The notes below the pieces were generated by a model. That model saw only the letters and a program-made list of their open reading frames with translations, was not told the origin of the DNA and did not search any database. A DNA stretch of 64,000 nucleotides from positions 1-64,000 of the forward strand of contig NZ_KB904153.1 in assembly GCF_000379945.1 (NCBI RefSeq). Reading direction: 5' to 3'. The stretch comes from Porphyromonas macacae DSM 20710 = JCM 13914 (GTDB lineage Bacteria; Bacteroidota; Bacteroidia; Bacteroidales; Porphyromonadaceae). The position numbers and the translations under genes were made by a program. Below are positions 8,517 to 57,602 of this stretch, in pieces. Numbering within the stretch: the stretch's first letter is position 1; each line of letters starts with the position of its first letter.

Positions 8517-9408
8517 CAAAGAACATCAAATCGGTAACACGCTGAATTCTGTTCTGGGGCAGACTTTTCAGGATTTTGAGGTTATAATAGTCAATGATGG
8601 CTCTACAGATAGTAGTGTAGAAAAAGTACAGAAAATCTCTGATTCAAGAATTAGATTGATTCATCAGAAGAATTTGGGTGTTTCTGCTGCGCGTAATCGA
8701 GGAATTAAGGAATCGAAAGGAGAATGGATCGCTTTTTTGGATGCGGATGATGAGTGGTTACCGGAGTATTTACAGACCCAAATAGAACTTTCGAGAAAAT
8801 ATCCTCAAGCGGCAGTATGTGCAACCGGATATATTTTAAGAGATCAAGATGGGAAGTTGCGTGACCCGTTATTTTCTCATTTGAATATTGAGGGAGATGG
8901 GGTGATAAATAATTATTTTGAAATTGTTTCGTCTTCTTCTCCTCTTATAACATCGATTTCTGTATTTATAAAAAAAGAAGCTTTGATTGCTTTGGGAGGC
9001 TTTCTGTTAGGTGTAACATTGGGTGAGGATCTTATTACATGGGCGAAGTTAGCTTGCCGATATCCGATTGCTTATTCATCAAAAAAGTTGGCCATATATA
9101 ATTTCCCCAGTATTCAGATGATTGTTCCGGGGAAGATTCCGGATAAGATTGATTTGGTTGGTGAGGAACTCGGAAGATTATATCGGGAATATGGTTATAT
9201 CAAAGGGTTAAAAGAGTATGTGGCCTTATGGCATAAAATGCGTATGGCCACTTTTGTAAGATTGAAAATGAAGCACGAGGCTGATATGTCTTATAGATAC
9301 ATAAAATCCTATGCAAAACCTACTCTTAAGGTACGTGTATGGTATCTATTAAACCATATGCCCCCTCTTTTTACAAGAGGTATTCTTAAATGCATCTTTC
9401 GGAATTAA
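8488..9408 (+). CDS. Glycosyltransferase family 2
   Basis: A GT-A fold inverting glycosyltransferase of 306 residues. The canonical start SVVIPLYNKEHQIGNTLNSV is followed by VIIVNDGSTDSS at about 33-44, then GVSAARNRGI, and the metal-binding FLDADDEW (DxD-like) near 85-92. A later LGEDLITWAKLA supplies the usual ED/W acceptor-side element. The gene begins inside the last 29 bases of the polymerase gene, showing tight coupling. It presumably extends the lipid-linked oligosaccharide. Sugar specificity is not readable. Confidence 0.9.
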   Translation: MISVVIPLYNKEHQIGNTLNSVLGQTFQDFEVIIVNDGSTDSSVEKVQKISDSRIRLIHQKNLGVSAARNRGIKESKGEWIAFLDADDEWLPEYLQTQIELSRKYPQAAVCATGYILRDQDGKLRDPLFSHLNIEGDGVINNYFEIVSSSSPLITSISVFIKKEALIALGGFLLGVTLGEDLITWAKLACRYPIAYSSKKLAIYNFPSIQMIVPGKIPDKIDLVGEELGRLYREYGYIKGLKEYVALWHKMRMATFVRLKMKHEADMSYRYIKSYAKPTLKVRVWYLLNHMPPLFTRGILKCIFRN

Positions 9409-9418
9409 TACTTTTTAG

Positions 9419-10594
9419 ATGATGAAAAAAGTGGTAATTGTTCATACGGATTTTCGCATATATTGGCCGGCCAGATTGAAAGGTTTGGAACGTATAGCCC
9501 AAAAACAAGGTCTTGAGCTATATGTCATCGAGATTGCCGGTAAGGGAAGCCCTTATGCTTTTGCCGGTTGTGAGACCAGTCTCACACGACATTGGAGAAT
9601 TTTATTTCCCGAAAAGAAAATGGAAGATTTATCCTCTTCTCAAATTAAGCCTTTGTTGATAAGAAATTTACAAGAGCTTAATCCGGATGTTGTTGTTGCC
9701 GGGGCCATTGCTTTTCCTTCCGGGGCAATTTCTGTTATGTGGGCAAAGAAAAACCATAAAGGTGTTGTAATATTTGATGATGCCAAAGTCGAAGATGTCC
9801 CACGTGGATTTTTTGTGAATTTTATAAAAAAAAGGATATATCGTAATGTGGATTCTGTTGTCTATCCGGCATCTCCCTGGGATAAAACAGCATTTTCATG
9901 GGGATTTAAAAAAGAGCAAATTTTTTATGGTATAGATGTAGTTGATAATAATTTTTGGAAATCATCCGATGAATCTATCATACTCAGAGAACCGAAAATG
10001 GTTGTAGTCGGCCGACTTGTTAAACGTAAAAATATAGATTTTCTGATTCGTGTTTTTCAAGAATGTAACACACAAGATTATGAGCTTTTGATTGTTGGAG
10101 ACGGTCCGGAAAAAAAGAATCTGAAATGTTTGGCAGAATCTGATCAGAACATTCGTTTCCTTCCTTTTATGAAGCAGTCGGAATTGAGAGAATTGTATAA
10201 ACGTGTATCTGTTTTTATTATTCCAAGTACATATGATACGTGGGGACTGGTTATCAATGAAGCTATGGCTGCCGGTTTGCCTGTTATTGCAAGCAGCAAA
10301 TGCGGAGCAACCGAAGTTTTAGTTAAAGATGGTGTAAATGGTTATGTTTTTAATCCGGAAGATGATGGTACTTCCATGAAGAAAAAACTGGATGTTTTTT
10401 TTAATCTTTCCGAAGAAGCGAGAAGAGAATTAGGGCTGGCGTCAGAAAAGATTATTTCAGATTGGGGTATAGATCGATTTGCCGAAGAGATGTTGAAAGC
10501 TATCGATTATGCATATCGGAATAAGAAAAAGAGTGTGAACATTTGGGATAAACTTATTTTGAATCTTTGGAAAGGAAGATATAAACAGATATGA
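9419..10594 (+). CDS. Glycosyltransferase family 4
   Basis: The 391-residue GT-B enzyme has MVVVGRLVKRKNIDFLIRVF around 195-215, LLIVGDGPEKKNLK, and a C-terminal donor site with IPSTYDTWGLVINEAMAAGLPVI. The TWGLVxNEAM version replaces the common EGFGL form and occurs in a subset of family 4 enzymes. The N-terminal domain starts with VVIVHTDFRIYWPARLKGLE. Spacing to the previous gene is ten bases, and the stop overlaps the next start by four bases. Role: another repeat-unit sugar addition; donor unknown. Confidence 0.88.
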   Translation: MMKKVVIVHTDFRIYWPARLKGLERIAQKQGLELYVIEIAGKGSPYAFAGCETSLTRHWRILFPEKKMEDLSSSQIKPLLIRNLQELNPDVVVAGAIAFPSGAISVMWAKKNHKGVVIFDDAKVEDVPRGFFVNFIKKRIYRNVDSVVYPASPWDKTAFSWGFKKEQIFYGIDVVDNNFWKSSDESIILREPKMVVVGRLVKRKNIDFLIRVFQECNTQDYELLIVGDGPEKKNLKCLAESDQNIRFLPFMKQSELRELYKRVSVFIIPSTYDTWGLVINEAMAAGLPVIASSKCGATEVLVKDGVNGYVFNPEDDGTSMKKKLDVFFNLSEEARRELGLASEKIISDWGIDRFAEEMLKAIDYAYRNKKKSVNIWDKLILNLWKGRYKQI

Positions 10595-11784
10595 AAATCC
10601 TTATTGTACATAATGATTATGGCAAGCCCAGCGGTGAAGAATCTGTCGTAGAACGGATGAAGGCCTTATTTATGCAGCAGGGAATGGAAGTTTTTGAGTA
10701 TAGATGCTCTTCTGAGATTTTAACCGGAGTTAAGGGTAAGATCAGAGGATTTATCTCCGGAATTTACTCCCATTCAGGTGTCAAAGGATTAAGAGAGGCT
10801 ATAAGAATATATCAGCCGGATATTATTAATGTTCACAACTTATATCCGTTAATATCTCCGGCCGCTCTTTTTGAGTGTAAAAAACAGAAAATACCGGTTG
10901 TAATGACTGTACACAATTACCGCTTGATATGTCCTACGGGACTTTTTATGAGAAAGGGGGTACCGTGTGAGGCATGTCTTGTTTCCGGGTGTGAGTTGAA
11001 TTGTATTCGTTTTAATTGTGAAAAATCTTTTGCTAAATCTATTGGTTATGCTATCCGTAACTATGTTGCAAGGAAGAGTGGGGCGTATAGGAAGAATGTA
11101 AGTGTTTTTGCTTGCTTGACGGATTTTCAGAGGAGCAAATTGATCGAAGCGGGTTTTGAACGAGACAAAATCGTTGTTATACCGAACTCGATAGAAGTTC
11201 CGCCACAGCATACTTTTTCCGAAGGTAAATATATTGGATATGTAGGCCGGTTAAGCTATGAAAAAGGATTTGACCGATTAGTGAAAATTGCTCGTTTACA
11301 TCCGGAGTTAAATTTTCAGTTTGCCGGAGAAATACGAGGTGATATGGCTGGAGATATACCTGAGAATGTGAAATTTCTTGGCCAACTTGATCAAAAAAGC
11401 TTGGATGGGTTTTTTCGTAATGCAAAATTTTTGGTTATTCCAAGTCGATGTTATGAAGGCTTCCCAATGGTTATATTGGAGGCTGCCGGATGGCATAAGC
11501 CTGTAATTTGCCCCGAACATGGAGGTTTCACGGAAATCATAGGCAAAGGAATAAACAGTATTGGGAGGTTATTTAATACCAATGATGAAGATGATTTAGA
11601 GAAACAAATTTTGTATTTGTGGAATTCCCCCGAGGAGGTAAAAGAATTGGGAGAAAGGGCCTACCGGAAGCTGCAAACAGGATATTCATCTGAAATAATA
11701 GCAAAAAAATGGATGGAGTTAATAGGCTGTTTGGTAAACTCGGGTAGAAGTTTTGAAAATACTTTGCAGAGAAAAGTCCAATAA
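10591..11784 (+). CDS. Glycosyltransferase family 4
   Basis: A 397-residue GT-B glycosyltransferase. The N-terminal domain has ILIVHNDYGKPSGEESVVERM and VHNLYPLISPA. A cysteine-rich loop (CPTGLFMRKGVPCEACLVSGCELNC, about 108-135) is typical of one family 4 subgroup and could bind metal. The donor domain carries YVGRLSYEKGFDRLVK, VIPSRCYEGFPMVILEAAG and the conserved glutamate pair. Overlaps the preceding gene by four bases. Inferred to complete the repeat unit; acceptor and donor are unknown. Confidence 0.88.
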   Translation: MKILIVHNDYGKPSGEESVVERMKALFMQQGMEVFEYRCSSEILTGVKGKIRGFISGIYSHSGVKGLREAIRIYQPDIINVHNLYPLISPAALFECKKQKIPVVMTVHNYRLICPTGLFMRKGVPCEACLVSGCELNCIRFNCEKSFAKSIGYAIRNYVARKSGAYRKNVSVFACLTDFQRSKLIEAGFERDKIVVIPNSIEVPPQHTFSEGKYIGYVGRLSYEKGFDRLVKIARLHPELNFQFAGEIRGDMAGDIPENVKFLGQLDQKSLDGFFRNAKFLVIPSRCYEGFPMVILEAAGWHKPVICPEHGGFTEIIGKGINSIGRLFNTNDEDDLEKQILYLWNSPEEVKELGERAYRKLQTGYSSEIIAKKWMELIGCLVNSGRSFENTLQRKVQ

Positions 11785-13348: not shown

Positions 13349-15637
13349 ATGAGAGAATATAGTTCGAATAATATAATGAAGGCTGAAGTAGACAATAATA
13401 TTGTTCTGAAAAAAATGCTGTCTGTTTTGATGGATAAATGGAAATGGTTTTTATTGTCCATACTGTTCTGTCTGGCTTGTGCCTCTTTTTATCTGTGGTA
13501 TTCGACAAAAGTCTATACCATTAGTGCAACAGCTTTAATACGTGAAACGGATTCGAAAATCAACCCTGCGCCTCAAGGTGTAAATCTGTCCAATATCGGT
13601 TTTTTAGCTCCGGCGAATAGTGTGAGCGATGAAATTGAAATCATGCGTTCAAAAACGGTTATGAAGAAAGCTATTCTTGCGACGGGTTCATTTGTTACTT
13701 ATACCACGAAAGACGGTTTTTTAAGTCATAAAGATCTTTATACGGAATCTCCCGTTATTGTAACTATGGGAGAAGAAAATCTAAATAAACTTTCATCGGA
13801 TTTTGCCCTTGAAATCAGAATACCGGATGTAAATAAGATAGAAGTCAATGGCTCCATCGGTGAAAAGAAAATAACAACCGGAGTTGTAGCATGTCCTTAT
13901 GTTTTGGATTCTCCGGTTGGACCGATTCAAATAGCTCTGAAACCCGATGTTCCTTCTGTTAAATCCGGTAAAGTCTCTGTTGTGGTTCATGCCCTCGACC
14001 AATTGGTAAACGATTATTTAGATGCATTATCTATCTTAAAAAAGGAAAATACCAACTCGATTGTTAACATCGAATTCAAGTCTACGCATAGAAGAAGAGG
14101 AGAAGATTTTGTAAATGAATTCATTCGTATGTACAACCGTACGGCTGATATGGATAAAAATCTGATTGCTCAGAAAACAGATGATTTTATCAATGAACGT
14201 ATAAAGATTATCGCTTATGGATTAGGAGATGCGGAAACAGCATTGGAACAAACCAAGAAAGCTGCCGGTCTTACTAATTTGAGTGATTTCCAGAATGTTG
14301 TTTCCGGTAATGCGAGTGCCGAAAAGGAGCGTGTACAAATCAATACGCAGTTACAGCTGGTCAAATACTTAAGAGAGTATGTTTATAATCCACAGAATAA
14401 TGATCAGGTTATTCCGGCAAATATAGGTATCGAAAATACTACTTTAACGACCCTTATAAGCAACTATAATGAACAGCTTTTGAAGCGAAACCGCTATTTG
14501 GAATCATCTACACCGGAAAATCCGATGGTGGTAAGAAAAACGGAAGAACTGAAAACCTTAAAAGAAAATATATTGACTTCTATTAATAACGTTTATCAAA
14601 GTTTATTAATTAATAAGAGGGATATAGATACTCATGCGAGTAAACTTGCAGGGAGAATATTGAATGCCCCTACTCAAGAACGTGAGTTGACGGATATTTC
14701 ACGTCAACAGGAAATCAAGTCCAGCCTTTATCTGATGCTGTTACAGAAAAGAGAGGAGAATAATATAAAACTGGCCTCCACGGCAGATAATGCCCGCATT
14801 ATAGATCCTGCCATAGCGAGCAGAAAACCTGTCAATCCAAATCCTTTTACAGTAAGACTGATCGCTTTAATACTCGGCATATTGATTCCTGTCATAATTC
14901 TTTTACTTTTGAATTTCTTCAAGACAAAAATTTCTTCTGTTGAAGATATCCGAAAATTGACCGCAATACCCATTTTTGCTCAAGTACCATGGATTAAAGA
15001 TTTGAAAAAGCTGCAAATCGTTATCAAAGAAAAAGATAATACGCCTTTATCGGAAGTTTTCAGAAAAATAAGAACAAATCTGAGACTTGCTTTGAAAAGG
15101 GAAAACAATAAAGTCGTTTTGGTAACTTCTACGGTGAAGGGCGAAGGAAAGACCTTTATTGCATCAAATCTGGCAGCCAGCTTGTCTCTGTTGGGTAAAA
15201 AGGTTGTGATAATAGGCATGGATATGCGTAATCCGCAATTGATCAATGTTTTTGGGTTGAAAGAACAATCGGCCGGGTTAAGCGATATGCTTCTGGCAGG
15301 TAATAGAAATTACGATTCTTATATTCAAACGTCAACTTATCATGATAATCTTTTCATACTTCCTGCCGGAAAGAATTCTGTTAACTCTACTGAACTGTTG
15401 GAGCTGCCTTTATTACAGGAGATAGTAAAAGAGCTTAAAATGAAGTTTGACTTCGTGATTATTGACACCGTTTCGGTGGGAGAAGATGTGGTAGATGCTT
15501 TTGTCATATCGGATCTTGCAGATGCAACTTTATATGTTTGTCGTGATAATCACGTAAAGAGAGACCAATTCTCAACGGTCAATGAATTAATCAGTCAAGG
15601 GATACTGCAAAACGTTTCTATTGTATTTAATGGATAG
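13349..15637 (+). CDS. Wzc-like polysaccharide co-polymerase / BY-kinase, lacking a Tyr-rich tail
   Basis: This inner-membrane protein controls chain length and export. The N-terminal Wzz-type domain is bounded by membrane segments at about 32-50 and 505-525, with a long periplasmic part containing the SRQQEIKSSLYLMLLQKREE helix. The cytoplasmic ATPase has Walker A VKGEGKTFIASNLA near 592-605, Walker A' VVIIGMDMRNP, and Walker B FVIIDT. Family members generally end in a tyrosine cluster that is autophosphorylated; this one stops at NVSIVFNG, and reading past the stop gives no tyrosines. It may therefore be regulated differently or be inactive as a tyrosine kinase. Last gene of the operon; a terminator-like hairpin follows at 15737. 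Confidence 0.9.
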   Translation: MREYSSNNIMKAEVDNNIVLKKMLSVLMDKWKWFLLSILFCLACASFYLWYSTKVYTISATALIRETDSKINPAPQGVNLSNIGFLAPANSVSDEIEIMRSKTVMKKAILATGSFVTYTTKDGFLSHKDLYTESPVIVTMGEENLNKLSSDFALEIRIPDVNKIEVNGSIGEKKITTGVVACPYVLDSPVGPIQIALKPDVPSVKSGKVSVVVHALDQLVNDYLDALSILKKENTNSIVNIEFKSTHRRRGEDFVNEFIRMYNRTADMDKNLIAQKTDDFINERIKIIAYGLGDAETALEQTKKAAGLTNLSDFQNVVSGNASAEKERVQINTQLQLVKYLREYVYNPQNNDQVIPANIGIENTTLTTLISNYNEQLLKRNRYLESSTPENPMVVRKTEELKTLKENILTSINNVYQSLLINKRDIDTHASKLAGRILNAPTQERELTDISRQQEIKSSLYLMLLQKREENNIKLASTADNARIIDPAIASRKPVNPNPFTVRLIALILGILIPVIILLLLNFFKTKISSVEDIRKLTAIPIFAQVPWIKDLKKLQIVIKEKDNTPLSEVFRKIRTNLRLALKRENNKVVLVTSTVKGEGKTFIASNLAASLSLLGKKVVIIGMDMRNPQLINVFGLKEQSAGLSDMLLAGNRNYDSYIQTSTYHDNLFILPAGKNSVNSTELLELPLLQEIVKELKMKFDFVIIDTVSVGEDVVDAFVISDLADATLYVCRDNHVKRDQFSTVNELISQGILQNVSIVFNG

Positions 15638-15785: not shown

Positions 15786-15788
15786 TTC

Positions 15789-15880
15789 TTTGCCTGATGG
15801 ATTTTCAACGAAGTTAACTTGGATTTTTTTTCTTTGCCTGAAGAATTTTCAACCATCAGGCAGATTTTTTTCAGTACACG
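15789..15880 (+). repeat. Palindromic intergenic repeat, copy A
   Basis: The core runs from TTTGCCTGATGG through ACGAAGTTAACTTGG and a T8 run to a right arm with CAACCATCAGGCAGA, followed by TTTTTTTCAGTACACGTCA. It is the same orientation as copies at 37493 and 57301, but its left arm is partly degraded. Short open frames such as KNFQPSG are by-products of the palindrome. Confidence 0.7.
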
Positions 15881-16040
15881 TCAGTACACATCAAGATAAG
15901 AAAATATGCTTCGATCTTGATAATTAACTAAACGCTATTGTTGTTTTGTTGAAAAAGAATTTGTACTTTCTGATCCATATATAGTAATCGTTTGATATGA
16001 TTGCAAATGAAAGAATAGTAACATTTTAACAGTAATCTTT
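15881..16040. other. Leader region of the double-glycine peptide gene
   Basis: Between the palindromic repeat and the small peptide gene the sequence is AT-rich. AATTTGTACTTTCTG near 15958-15972 is a loose match to a Bacteroidetes promoter. No strong Shine-Dalgarno sequence precedes the ATG at 16041, which is usual in this phylum. Confidence 0.3.
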
Positions 16041-16217
16041 ATGATGAAGACTAAAGATTTTGATGTTTTTACTAATCAAGAATTATCAGAAGTAAAAGGT
16101 GGCACATGGTTCGAAGATGCTATTGACTGGATTGGTGAGAAATTGTCTGACATTTGTAAATGGATGAAGGAATATGGTAAGAAGGACGGGGCTCCAGGCC
16201 TTGAAATTCCTTTTTGA
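16041..16217 (+). CDS. Small double-glycine-leader peptide (bacteriocin-like precursor)
   Basis: A 58-residue protein. Its first 22 residues look like a double-glycine leader: MMKTKDFDVFTNQELSEVKGG has the phenylalanine, the EL at -8/-7, and the terminal GG recognised by C39 peptidase-containing ABC exporters. The predicted core of about 37 residues starts TWFEDAIDWIGEKLSDICKW; it is amphipathic and Trp-rich, has one Cys, and ends GAPGLEIPF. It has its own terminator-like hairpin at 16290, so it appears monocistronic. No C39 exporter, immunity or modification enzyme is encoded nearby, so export would need a remote transporter. Antibacterial, signalling or scaffold roles are all possible. The start could be either of the two tandem Met codons. 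Confidence 0.7.
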   Translation: MMKTKDFDVFTNQELSEVKGGTWFEDAIDWIGEKLSDICKWMKEYGKKDGAPGLEIPF

Positions 16218-16289
16218 TTAACTGAAGTGACAGGCCTTATTTTGCTGTTTATACATCAGAATAAAAAGCTTTTACTCGAGGGTTTTAGT

Positions 16290-16316
16290 AAGGGGTCTTA
16301 TATCGTAAGAACCCTT
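16290..16316 (+). terminator. Hairpin after the small peptide gene
   Basis: AAGGGGTCTTA pairs with TAAGAACCCTT over 11 positions with one mismatch and a five-base loop, then GTTTAGTTT. It separates the peptide gene from the secreted protein gene at 16351. Confidence 0.5.
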
Positions 16317-16350
16317 GTTTAGTTTAAAACCATCAATCATATACTCAGCA

Positions 16351-17328
16351 ATGAAAAGAAATAGATTTTATATATTCCTTTTATTAACATCGTGCTTTAT
16401 AGCACAACTTCATGCTCAAAGAAAGCTAACTATAGCTGTATTCGACACACAAGGAAACAGACTGCCATATCCTGAGTTTATAATAGGGCATGATTTTCAC
16501 AGGGTAGGGACAAAGGATGGAACTGTAGAAGTCTCTTTTGACTCTACTGCTCTACATGATTTAATAACAGTGAAATACATGGGGTATAAAACAACTCAAA
16601 TACAGTTAGATAGTATTCACTTCTCTGATAAACTAATCAATGTGAATTTAGAAGAGGATTCATATCTGCTTGACCCTATAATAGTTGTTCCAAGCAAATT
16701 TTCTGCAGAAAAATACTTTCAGGAGAGAAAAAAGAATTTACTTCTACCTTACTATCGCACATACTTTTTTGATTTGGACTTTGTCTTAAACGAGAACAAT
16801 AAAACAGATCATTTCTATACCGGCCATGCATTGGGAACATCATGTCGTAACCAAACAGATATAGACAGCGCAAGTTTAGTTATCTCAGAAGTGATTTCAT
16901 ATAATGCTAAGCTACTCACCATATTGAAACGAGCTTCTGAAGTTAGCTATTTGATGGCAAATGCTTTTTGTCACAAAAGTGATAGAAAAAACTTTTATTG
17001 CACATACATGGGGAGTATTGATGGTTTTGAGTTGTGGGAGTTCTCTATTCGAAAACAAAAGGAAATGCCTTGGAATTTACAAGAAGACGATGAACTTAGA
17101 TGTATAGTTTCTTTGGATAAAGATGGCTTTATCAATAGGATTAAAACTCAACTAACATCGTCATCCGAGTATAGTGCATCTTATTTGTTAGATACCGAGT
17201 TTGGGCTTCATAAGAAAAAATTAATCCCATCAATAATTAAAATCGATCTCGTACCCAATGCTCGTAATGAGGATTTGAAATCATTATCTCTCGTAATTAA
17301 TTACTCTAATTTTCGCAAGGAGAAATAA
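16351..17328 (+). CDS. Secreted protein with N-terminal carboxypeptidase-regulatory-like domain
   Basis: Start chosen at the ATG at 16351 because it begins a clean signal peptide (KRNRFYIFLLLTSCFIAQLHAQ) with cleavage after AQ. The upstream in-frame extension is not signal-like. Residues about 24-100 form a beta-rich segment (KLTIAVFDTQGNRLPYPEFIIG, VKYMGYKT) like the CarboxypepD_reg/DUF4480-type Ig-like domains fused to Bacteroidetes envelope proteins. The remaining 220 residues are not recognised, though their pattern is reminiscent of DUF3868/GLPGLI-like secreted proteins that interpret a precursor's conversion. Total 325 residues. No barrel signature. The neighbouring double-glycine peptide may or may not be functionally linked. 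Confidence 0.65.
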   Translation: MKRNRFYIFLLLTSCFIAQLHAQRKLTIAVFDTQGNRLPYPEFIIGHDFHRVGTKDGTVEVSFDSTALHDLITVKYMGYKTTQIQLDSIHFSDKLINVNLEEDSYLLDPIIVVPSKFSAEKYFQERKKNLLLPYYRTYFFDLDFVLNENNKTDHFYTGHALGTSCRNQTDIDSASLVISEVISYNAKLLTILKRASEVSYLMANAFCHKSDRKNFYCTYMGSIDGFELWEFSIRKQKEMPWNLQEDDELRCIVSLDKDGFINRIKTQLTSSSEYSASYLLDTEFGLHKKKLIPSIIKIDLVPNARNEDLKSLSLVINYSNFRKEK

Positions 17329-29559: not shown

Positions 29560-31617
29560 ATGAACGCCAAACCGTTTTCTTTTTTTTCTCTTTTGCTGTT
29601 ATTGCTGTTTTTTACCGTTTCAGCATGCAGACATAAAGAACCGGAAGTGAATATGGAGGTCAGCTCTCCGAGTGAAGAGGTACTATTGTCTTTGCATCTA
29701 TCGCCTTCTGATGGTTCTTTATCTTATAGTCTTGCCTTTCGTGGAAAAGAGGTTATCAAAGAAGCGAGGCTGGGCTTTGAAACAGAAAACGGATTAAATC
29801 TAAATAAAGGTTTCGCTCCGTTAAGATCAATTTGCGGTACGGTCGATAGTACTTATTCTTTACCTTGGGGTGAGAATAAAAGGGTAAAAAATTATTATCG
29901 CTTTCTGGAGATTCCTTTTCGCTGCGCTGACGGTGGTGTACTGACATTGGAAAGTAGAGTTTATGATGATGGAGTCGGGTTTCGTTATCGTTATATCGCT
30001 CCTCCGAATGTCGATTCTGTTTTGATTACGAGAGAGTTAACTGAGTTTGCTTTTACAAAAGATGGCAAGAGTTGGAGTATACCTGCCGATGATGAGACTT
30101 ATGAATTATTATATCGTGAACTTCCTTTGAGTGTTGTTCAAACGGCAAATACGCCGATAACCGTACATACGGAAGATTCATTGTGGATAGCCATTCATGA
30201 AGCGCGATTGGTGGATTTCCCCGAAATGACCCTGAAGCAAAAGGATAGCTTGCTATTCGCATGTGAACATGTTCCCTGGCCGACTGAGAGAGTTGTTGCC
30301 AAAATGCCATCCGTATTCGTTTCTCCGTGGCGTGTTGTTTTGATTGGGAATAAGGCCGTGGATCTGCCGAAGAATAATATTGTACTCAATTTAAATGATG
30401 AATGTTCGGTCGATAAGTCTGCATTGGCGAAACCGATTAAATATATCGGTGTATGGTGGGGGATGCATGTAGGAGTTCACAGTTGGATTCCCGGTGAAAG
30501 GCATGGTTCGATTACAGAGCGGGCTCTTAAATATATCGATTTTGCCGCCCGGCATAATATACAGGGTGTGCTGTTCGAAGGTTGGAATGAAGGCTGGGAG
30601 AGCTGGGGAGGAGAGCAACATTTCAAACAAACATCTCCGGCAGAGGATTTTGATTTGCAAAAGGTGTTGGCTTATGCTAAAGAGAAAGGTATTGCTTTCA
30701 TCCTGCATAATGAAACCGGAGCCAATATGCCTGCATACGAAAGAGATCTGGACAGCGTTATGATATTCTGTCGTGATCATGGAATTCGTTACTTAAAGAC
30801 AGGGTATGCCGGAGGTATTCCCGGTGGGTATAAACATCATGGACAGTATGCCGTCCGTCATTATTTCAATGTTCTTCGTAAGGCTGCGCAAGCCGGGGTC
30901 ATACTGGATGTGCACGAACCGATTAAAGCTACGGGCATGCGTCGAACATACCCGAATATGATGACACGGGAAGGTGCACGAGGCATGGAGTGGAATGCCT
31001 GGAGCGAAGGAAATCCGCCGGAACATGAAACATTGTTACCCTTCACTCGTTTACTCGGAGGTCCAATGGACTATACACCCGGTATTTTTGATATTACTTT
31101 AGAAAAGAGCAAACGATCGGGTGTTTATAAAAAATGGAATGACAATGATATGGGTAACAGCCGGGTAAATACAACTCTGGCCAAACAGATTGCCTTGTGG
31201 ATTACATTATACTCGCCAATGCAAATGGCAGCGGATATGATTGAAAATTACGAGGGGCATGCTGCTTTCCGTTTTTTTGAGGATTACGATGCTGATATAG
31301 ATGAGAGTTTTCCTCTCGATGGTTATCCGGGGCAATTCTATGTTGTAGCTCGCCGTGCCGGAGAGTGTTACTATTTGGGGGCTGTAACGAATGCGGAGGA
31401 GAGGCAGATAGAAGTTTCTTTGGATTTTCTGAAGCCGGAAGTCATTTATGATGCCATCATATATGCCGATGCTCCTGATGCTCATTGGGAGACGAACCCG
31501 TTGGCATATCGAATTCTCGATAAAAAAGTTTCATCCGCAGATCGTATAACCATTTCAATGGCTCCCGGAGGAGGGCAGGCCATTACTTTTATTCCTGATA
31601 AACAAAATTTTAATTGA
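29560..31617 (+). CDS. Glycoside hydrolase family 97, SusB-like lipoprotein
   Basis: Start taken at ATG 29560, where a signal peptide with lipobox-like FFTVSAC begins; an in-frame upstream extension overlaps mnmA. The 685-residue protein has the GH97 N-terminal beta-sandwich, a TIM barrel with GVLFEGWNEGWESW, FILHNETGANMPAYE and GVILDVHEPIKATGMRRTYPN, and the C-terminal beta domain (PGGGQAITFIPDKQN). The glutamates in HNETG and DVHEP correspond to the base pair of the inverting SusB branch, while the aspartate of the retaining branch is not seen, so inverting alpha-glucosidase is more likely than alpha-galactosidase. The site is odd: no SusC/D partners, and the gene is wedged between mnmA and queF. 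Confidence 0.92.
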   Translation: MNAKPFSFFSLLLLLLFFTVSACRHKEPEVNMEVSSPSEEVLLSLHLSPSDGSLSYSLAFRGKEVIKEARLGFETENGLNLNKGFAPLRSICGTVDSTYSLPWGENKRVKNYYRFLEIPFRCADGGVLTLESRVYDDGVGFRYRYIAPPNVDSVLITRELTEFAFTKDGKSWSIPADDETYELLYRELPLSVVQTANTPITVHTEDSLWIAIHEARLVDFPEMTLKQKDSLLFACEHVPWPTERVVAKMPSVFVSPWRVVLIGNKAVDLPKNNIVLNLNDECSVDKSALAKPIKYIGVWWGMHVGVHSWIPGERHGSITERALKYIDFAARHNIQGVLFEGWNEGWESWGGEQHFKQTSPAEDFDLQKVLAYAKEKGIAFILHNETGANMPAYERDLDSVMIFCRDHGIRYLKTGYAGGIPGGYKHHGQYAVRHYFNVLRKAAQAGVILDVHEPIKATGMRRTYPNMMTREGARGMEWNAWSEGNPPEHETLLPFTRLLGGPMDYTPGIFDITLEKSKRSGVYKKWNDNDMGNSRVNTTLAKQIALWITLYSPMQMAADMIENYEGHAAFRFFEDYDADIDESFPLDGYPGQFYVVARRAGECYYLGAVTNAEERQIEVSLDFLKPEVIYDAIIYADAPDAHWETNPLAYRILDKKVSSADRITISMAPGGGQAITFIPDKQNFN

Positions 31618-37492: not shown

Positions 37493-37604
37493 AAAATTCT
37501 CTGCCTGATGGTTGAAAATTCTTAGCGCAATGGATTTTTGACGAAGTTAACTTGGATTTTTTTTCTTTGCCTGAATAATTTTCAACCATCAGGCAGAGAA
37601 TTTT
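37493..37604 (+). repeat. Palindromic intergenic repeat, copy B
   Basis: Inverted arms begin AAAATTCTCTGCCTGATGG and pair with CCATCAGGCAGAGAATTTT, with about 30 complementary bases and one or two mismatches. A central ACGAAGTTAACTTGG and a T8 run are shared with copies A and C. It is followed by GTGTACACTGTGACGTGTAC, itself dyad-like. The whole could fold into a long hairpin in RNA. Confidence 0.75.
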
Positions 37605-57199: not shown

Positions 57200-57602
57200 G
57201 TCGAAGACATAAAACAGTCAAATAAGATCCGAAAGAGAGGCATGTGATGAGAATACACATTGCCTCTCCATTTTTTAATACACGTCATACTCAAAAATTC
57301 TCTGCCTGATGGTTGAAAATTCTTCAAGCAATGGATTTTCAACGAAGTTAACTTGGATTTTTTTTCTTTGCCTGAAGAATTTTCAACCATCAGGCAGATT
57401 TTTTTCAGTCAATCTCAAATAAGATTTATCATTATTTGTTGTTGAAGTATAGAGAATAAATTTTTTAGTTTTCCTGCCTGGATTAAGAAATTCGTAAGTT
57501 TATAAACCGGTTGATTCCAATATGGAGAATCGACCGGAATATTTTGTTGATAATTTGCCTATTAAGAGGTCAGAAATCATCTAATGAAACATTTGATGCT
57601 CG
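57200..57602. other. Intergenic region after copA
   Basis: Holds palindromic repeat copy C at 57301 and, near 57235-57270, GAGAGGCATGTGATGAGA and TTGCCTCTCC, which form a small hairpin (GAGAGGCA/TGCCTCTC) followed by TTTTTTAATA, probably the copA terminator. No gene seen. Confidence 0.5.
57301..57398 (+). repeat. Palindromic intergenic repeat, copy C
   Basis: Perfect 24-base arms: TCTGCCTGATGG at the outer left (arm 57301-57324) and CCATCAGGCAGA at the outer right (arm 57375-57398). The middle has CAACGAAGTTAACTTGG and the T8 run. It is the best-preserved palindrome of the three copies. It is followed by TTTTTTTCAGT, as in copy A. Confidence 0.8.

Follow-up and report, generated by a model that had tools for sequence, protein, structure and literature searches.

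The analysed stretch of DNA (64 kb, below called the window) contains a gene for a 58-aa precursor peptide at positions 16041..16217 (+ strand). Upstream of this gene is a Wzc-type chain-length gene (13349-15637; PF02706, PF13807 and AAA_31) that belongs to a polysaccharide operon. Downstream is a gene for a predicted secreted protein of 325 aa (16351..17328, +) with a signal-peptide-like N-terminus, which we refer to as the partner. This arrangement agrees with an initial annotation of the DNA, which placed the peptide between a polysaccharide operon and a secreted protein. The annotation also assigned the peptide gene its own terminator hairpin. A terminator-like hairpin does fold between the peptide and partner genes (16289..16317, +), at -11.7 kcal/mol and with a shuffle z of -2.8; for the full 118-nt intergenic region, the folding z is -4.0. 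However, the T tail of the hairpin is imperfect, and a consensus terminator scan did not list it.

Some further properties of the surroundings were noted. A dispersed repeat of roughly 66-99 bp, with copies that are up to 100% identical, occurs at 15786-15883, 37519-37597 and 57331-57409 of the window, at L011:15606-15693 and in L067. One copy precedes the peptide gene by about 160 bp, and another is downstream of the exporter cluster described below. A search with the neighbouring S51 peptidase for an empty site found distant homologues only, and no insertion boundary was set.

The open reading frame at 16041-16217 (+) encodes the leader MMKTKDFDVFTNQELSEVKGG followed by the core TWFEDAIDWIGEKLSDICKWMKEYGKKDGAPGLEIPF. 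The leader (21 aa; 16041..16103, +) is of the canonical C39 (ComC-type) double-glycine (GG) class, with F-15, F-12, E-8, L-7, V-4, G-2 and G-1. The consensus for ComA comprises Leu-12, Glu-8 and Leu-7, and structural data identify Val-4, Leu-7 and Leu-12 as contacts to the groove (PMC6363468). The peptide has hydrophobic residues at each of the positions -4, -7 and -12 (V-4, L-7 and F-12), in addition to E-8 and F-15. We also defined a strict register, in which [FILMV] occupies each of -15, -12, -7 and -4 and then GG follows, within a short frame that begins with ATG. It occurs twice in the window, in the peptide gene and in an unsupported frame at 30621 (-), with 0.08-0.18 occurrences expected per 64-kb window of first-order Markov sequence. 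The peptide itself scores under all curated cut-offs, including those of TIGR01847, PF10439 (17.8 vs 27.1) and PF03047 (14.7 vs 20.4); a homologue in Porphyromonas levii is above those of TIGR01847 (17.9 > 15.7 bits) and PF03047, i.e., ComC (21.1 > 20.4). Given the matching register and the scores of this homologue, the initial recognition of a C39-type leader ending in ELSEVKGG was correct. A TIGR01847 search of the peptide's own genome missed even the 58-aa peptide, and is uninformative.

The predicted mature core (37 aa; 16104..16214, +) would have an average mass of ~4318 Da (4317.9 if unmodified), a pI of ~4.5 and a net charge of -3. It is acidic and Trp-rich, and has a single Cys. The initial annotation had described a short, amphipathic, Trp-rich core with one Cys, and had suggested a prediction of amphipathicity as a check. 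This check agrees with the description (moment p ~0.002), and a low-confidence model (mean pLDDT 59; 64-78 within the helix) puts an amphipathic helix at approximately residues 23-48 of the precursor.

Among all collections searched, the sole convincing homologue of the peptide is the one in P. levii DSM 23370, with 53% identity along its entire length. A stretch of 12 residues, DAIDWIGEKLSD, is unchanged between the two peptides, and Cys is absent from the P. levii peptide. The two genes differ by 54 bases, of which 19, 8 and 27 are at codon positions 1, 2 and 3, respectively. Estimates of dN/dS are ~0.20 (NG86), 0.26 (LWL85) and 0.58 (YN00), so the apparent strength of constraint depends on the method; moreover, the family has two known members, and all conservation statistics come from this one pair of sequences. 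A profile search across 393 genomes of the order found no further member of the peptide family. Searches of plasmids yielded only chance matches, and those of viral contigs yielded none.

Several other matches were rejected. One in Lachnospiraceae (L010) lies, in frame, within the sequence for an ABC ATPase, and weak matches in five genomes (G019, G022, G042, G043 and G059; E 0.3-1) lie inside long, unrelated frames. A match between the peptide and cGAS (E 0.09) was taken as chance.

Its short length and very few homologues might suggest that the frame is open merely by chance. However, it has a full-length homologue with a coding pattern of substitutions, a conserved neighbouring gene and a canonical leader. 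The idea of a chance frame is next to impossible, and we consider it excluded because peptide and partner are conserved as a pair. Judging from these sequence comparisons, the peptide gene is a real gene. The initial annotation had made its case depend in part on homologues of the leader in other genomes, and the P. levii peptide provides one.

The partner has a CarboxypepD_reg/SusC NTE-like domain, with a weak Pfam match to PF13715, and a putative LolA-like domain. Its low-confidence AlphaFold model (pLDDT 67) matches the SusC NTE 9hfj as well as two LolA folds, 3buu and 9tp6 (E 1e-4 to 1e-5 overall, and about 1e-5 for LolA). Since the Pfam matches are weak, we only tentatively describe the partner as a SusC-NTE-like domain plus a LolA-like domain, the latter part with low confidence.

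In P. levii, a homologue of the partner that is 53% identical directly follows the peptide homologue. The peptide is thus one half of a two-gene pair that is conserved in both genomes. The initial annotation regarded the peptide as solitary. This view is accurate in that no exporter is beside the peptide, but the secreted partner downstream accompanies it in both genomes, so the description is only partly right. In another genome of the same genus (G019), the partner gene is frameshifted and truncated, the exporter is broken and no peptide homologue was detected. This coincidence, seen once (n=1), is consistent with a shared function of partner, exporter and peptide. The profile search of 393 genomes also found one distant partner-like gene (in G258; E 1.5e-11), for which the N-terminal part aligned; no GG peptide was found in the 16-kb locus around it. 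The partner was not recognised as an immunity gene, nor was an immunity protein recognised near the peptide, and no modification enzyme adjoins the peptide in its own genome or in P. levii.

The genome that contains the window (2.21 Mb, 99.7% complete) was searched for exporters, and statements about the whole genome are the outcome of these searches. We found exactly one C39 domain, which is on contig C1 and outside the window. This result bears out the initial statement that the window has no C39 exporter. With an exporter elsewhere in the genome and a homologue in P. levii, two of the three outcomes that would have counted against the initial annotation were not observed. The C39 domain belongs to an intact peptidase-containing transporter (PCAT) of 741 aa that has the C39 Cys, His and Asp residues (DCG at 16, H91 and D112), Walker A and ATPase motifs, and whose alignments to PCAT1 (4ry2) and ComA (8hf4) extend from one end to the other.

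The C1 exporter is located in a class I lanthipeptide cluster at ~273.9-286.1 kb (L011:1886-14113). The cluster encodes a GG-leader precursor, LanC, a LanB N-terminal protein, a second, LanB-like C-terminal protein (recognised by eye), the PCAT and an accessory protein of 162 aa. The GG leader of the precursor passes NF038153. Lanthipeptide biosynthesis is uncommon in Bacteroidales (PMC10352776).

In P. levii, the peptide and the partner are followed by the start of a C39 exporter gene (9369-10745), which is cut by the end of the contig. This exporter and the C1 PCAT are 77-80% identical. Exporters of at least 74% identity are found in several relatives. In most of the loci that we read, a single GG peptide is encoded beside the exporter, together with a putative modification enzyme, a TonB-like outer membrane protein and an accessory protein of ~160 aa. 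Among the GG leaders tabulated from the window, P. levii and the loci of this exporter family, each of the 16 carries either L or M at position -7, and I, V, L or M at -4; this table indicates compatibility, and is no independent test because the leaders were chosen partly by the same register. Genome-wide, the register has 29 matches, compared with 25 in a reversed control. The search for peptides with the same leader, which the initial annotation had proposed, leaves two credible GG peptides in the genome; the 58-aa peptide and the lanthipeptide precursor are the only plausible short secreted peptides among the register matches.

Additional observations concern C39 exporters and GG peptides in relatives. 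P. levii (G033) has eleven C39 matches, on contigs C31, C62, C83, C92, C94 and C116, several of which are broken or cut by contig ends. This distribution suggests that PCAT clusters were gained and lost repeatedly. In relatives, genes resembling those of conjugative elements flank several such clusters. P. levii also encodes a further GG-leader peptide (MNRETLTTSEMMNISGG...) at G033:C43:33291 (L047:1492-1665), which is located between genes for GLPGLI-like secreted proteins and scores near the TIGR01847 cut-off.

It seems fairly likely that the 58-aa product is the precursor of an unmodified peptide similar to class II bacteriocins or microcins, and that it is exported in trans by the C1 PCAT, with the partner dedicated to it. 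This reading builds on the gene itself, the type of its leader, the conservation of the pair, the related exporter that adjoins the pair in P. levii, and the presence of just one exporter, which is intact, in this genome. The 21-aa leader would dock to the C1 exporter and be cut after GG by its C39 domain, and the PCAT of the lanthipeptide cluster would thereby act in trans, releasing an acidic amphipathic helix of 37 aa. We infer that the released peptide may have antibacterial activity, and that the NTE/LolA-like partner would work in the periplasm, as a peptide carrier or a self-protection protein.

The fact that the P. levii pair adjoins an exporter of the same family as the only C39 exporter of this genome favours export in trans. 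Moreover, there is a documented case of a GG peptide that leaves the cell through a non-cognate C39 exporter acting in trans, namely BlpC through ComAB (PMC4739728). The remote exporter suggested by the initial annotation is therefore well supported as a prediction. However, PCATs are able to distinguish one GG peptide from another (PMC7018657), so we go only so far as to say that the peptide is probably exported from a distance. Another point against this reading is that the C1 exporter has its own substrate, a lanthipeptide precursor with a leader of a different class (NF038153). Most class II bacteriocins are cationic. The acidic core thus counts against the reading, as do the lack of a recognised immunity protein, the existence of only two known members and the pLDDT of 67 for the partner model.

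A more specific proposal is that peptide and partner form a two-gene secretion module. The partner would then be a LolA-type periplasmic carrier that binds the amphipathic peptide on its way out of the inner-membrane PCAT and passes it on to the outer membrane, replacing the membrane-fusion protein that is absent from these Bacteroidales exporters, and the module could plug into any compatible PCAT of the genome. We consider this proposal doubtful.

The presence of LanB, LanC and the exporter in the same genome, and of SDIC in the core, raises the question of whether the peptide could be a second lanthipeptide precursor that is modified in trans by the C1 enzymes, e.g., with a Ser36-Cys39 thioether ring. 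This is very improbable. The P. levii homologue lacks Cys, and the leader has no match to lanthipeptide leaders, whereas that of the precursor in the C1 cluster does. In addition, LanB and LanC are encoded on a different contig along with this precursor of their own.

The pair could also be a decaying remnant that stayed behind once the exporter of a mobile cluster had been lost, and that is no longer exported or used. The peptide has no local exporter, its locus is of a different kind from that in P. levii, G019 retains only a broken copy of the partner, and P. levii is full of broken C39 exporters. However, both genes are intact, the differences between the homologues are codon-constrained, the hairpin is present, and the genome has an intact exporter of the right family. 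On balance, a remnant is improbable.

Alternatively, the core might be a secreted pheromone that controls group behaviour and acts on a receptor at the surface or in the periplasm, perhaps a two-component system. We regard this function as rather unlikely, although the leader is ComC-like, the core is acidic, the 12-residue stretch is identical in both peptides, and the surroundings of the P. levii homologue include a histidine kinase paired with a response regulator, as well as a second GG peptide. Specifically, the kinase/regulator pair goes with this other GG peptide of 50 aa, which is letter-identical in G030, where the 58-aa peptide was not found. Moreover, no histidine kinase, and thus no adjacent kinase and response regulator as expected for ComC-type pheromones, is beside the peptide in the window. 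Because the P. levii kinase/regulator pair belongs to a different peptide, we favour an antibacterial or effector role over signalling, but the two roles are inseparable by sequence.

The 50-aa peptide occurs in two species (L009:7217-7369 with L009:4970-7025, and L094:8805-8957 with L094:9149-11178). Its neighbours are also similar between these species, with histidine kinases that are 86% identical and response regulators that are 84% identical. Together, they may constitute a peptide-pheromone two-component module of Gram-negative bacteria.

The favoured bacteriocin-like peptide can be compared with several known systems. Bacteroidetocins are class IIa-like peptides of Bacteroidetes (PMC6671954). 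Like the peptide studied here, they are short peptides with GG leaders, originate in Bacteroidales and have no obvious immunity gene, and cleavage by a C39 exporter would be a further likeness. However, they have leaders of 15-16 aa, at least two Cys, an adjacent exporter, a transmembrane protein and usually a thiol oxidoreductase (PMC6671954). By contrast, our peptide has a 21-aa leader and one Cys, or none in P. levii, and has none of these neighbours beside it, but rather an NTE/LolA-like partner. Class II bacteriocins, microcins and ComC-type pheromones (PF10439, PF03047 and TIGR01847) share the leader type, the size and an apparently unmodified core. Unlike these, the core here is acidic and matches no known family, and the exporter and immunity gene that class II bacteriocins have in the same cluster were not found: no exporter is in the window and no known immunity gene was recognised locally.

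Bacteroidales clusters for RiPPs with GG precursors contain a PCAT and an outer membrane protein, lack a membrane-fusion protein, and have rSAM, YcaO or LanB enzymes (PMC10352776). They use the same general kind of exporter, and the exporter family described here adjoins GG precursors in many Porphyromonadaceae loci. The peptide-partner pair differs in that it carries neither a modification enzyme nor an outer membrane protein. The closest parallel for the proposed export is BlpC and ComAB in pneumococcus (PMC4739728), which likewise involve a GG peptide and a non-cognate C39 exporter encoded elsewhere. That case is Gram-positive and ComA and BlpA are 62% identical, whereas the exporter here belongs to a lanthipeptide cluster.

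The initial annotation considered the peptide the best candidate for an undescribed system. This claim is too strong, because C39-exported GG peptides are already known in Bacteroidales (PMC6671954, PMC10352776) and non-cognate export in trans is documented (PMC4739728). Rather than a new type of system, the peptide represents a rare form of C39-exported GG peptide, for which the partner is unusual and the exporter would have to be shared with a lanthipeptide. Few GG peptides are known from Gram-negative Bacteroidales, and the peptide adds a rare family to them. With one C39 exporter and two candidate substrates, this genome makes the sharing of an exporter testable. Finally, in several Bacteroidales clusters, a PCAT and an outer membrane protein occur with no recognised membrane-fusion protein (PMC10352776), and the partner is a specific candidate for this missing step in the periplasm.
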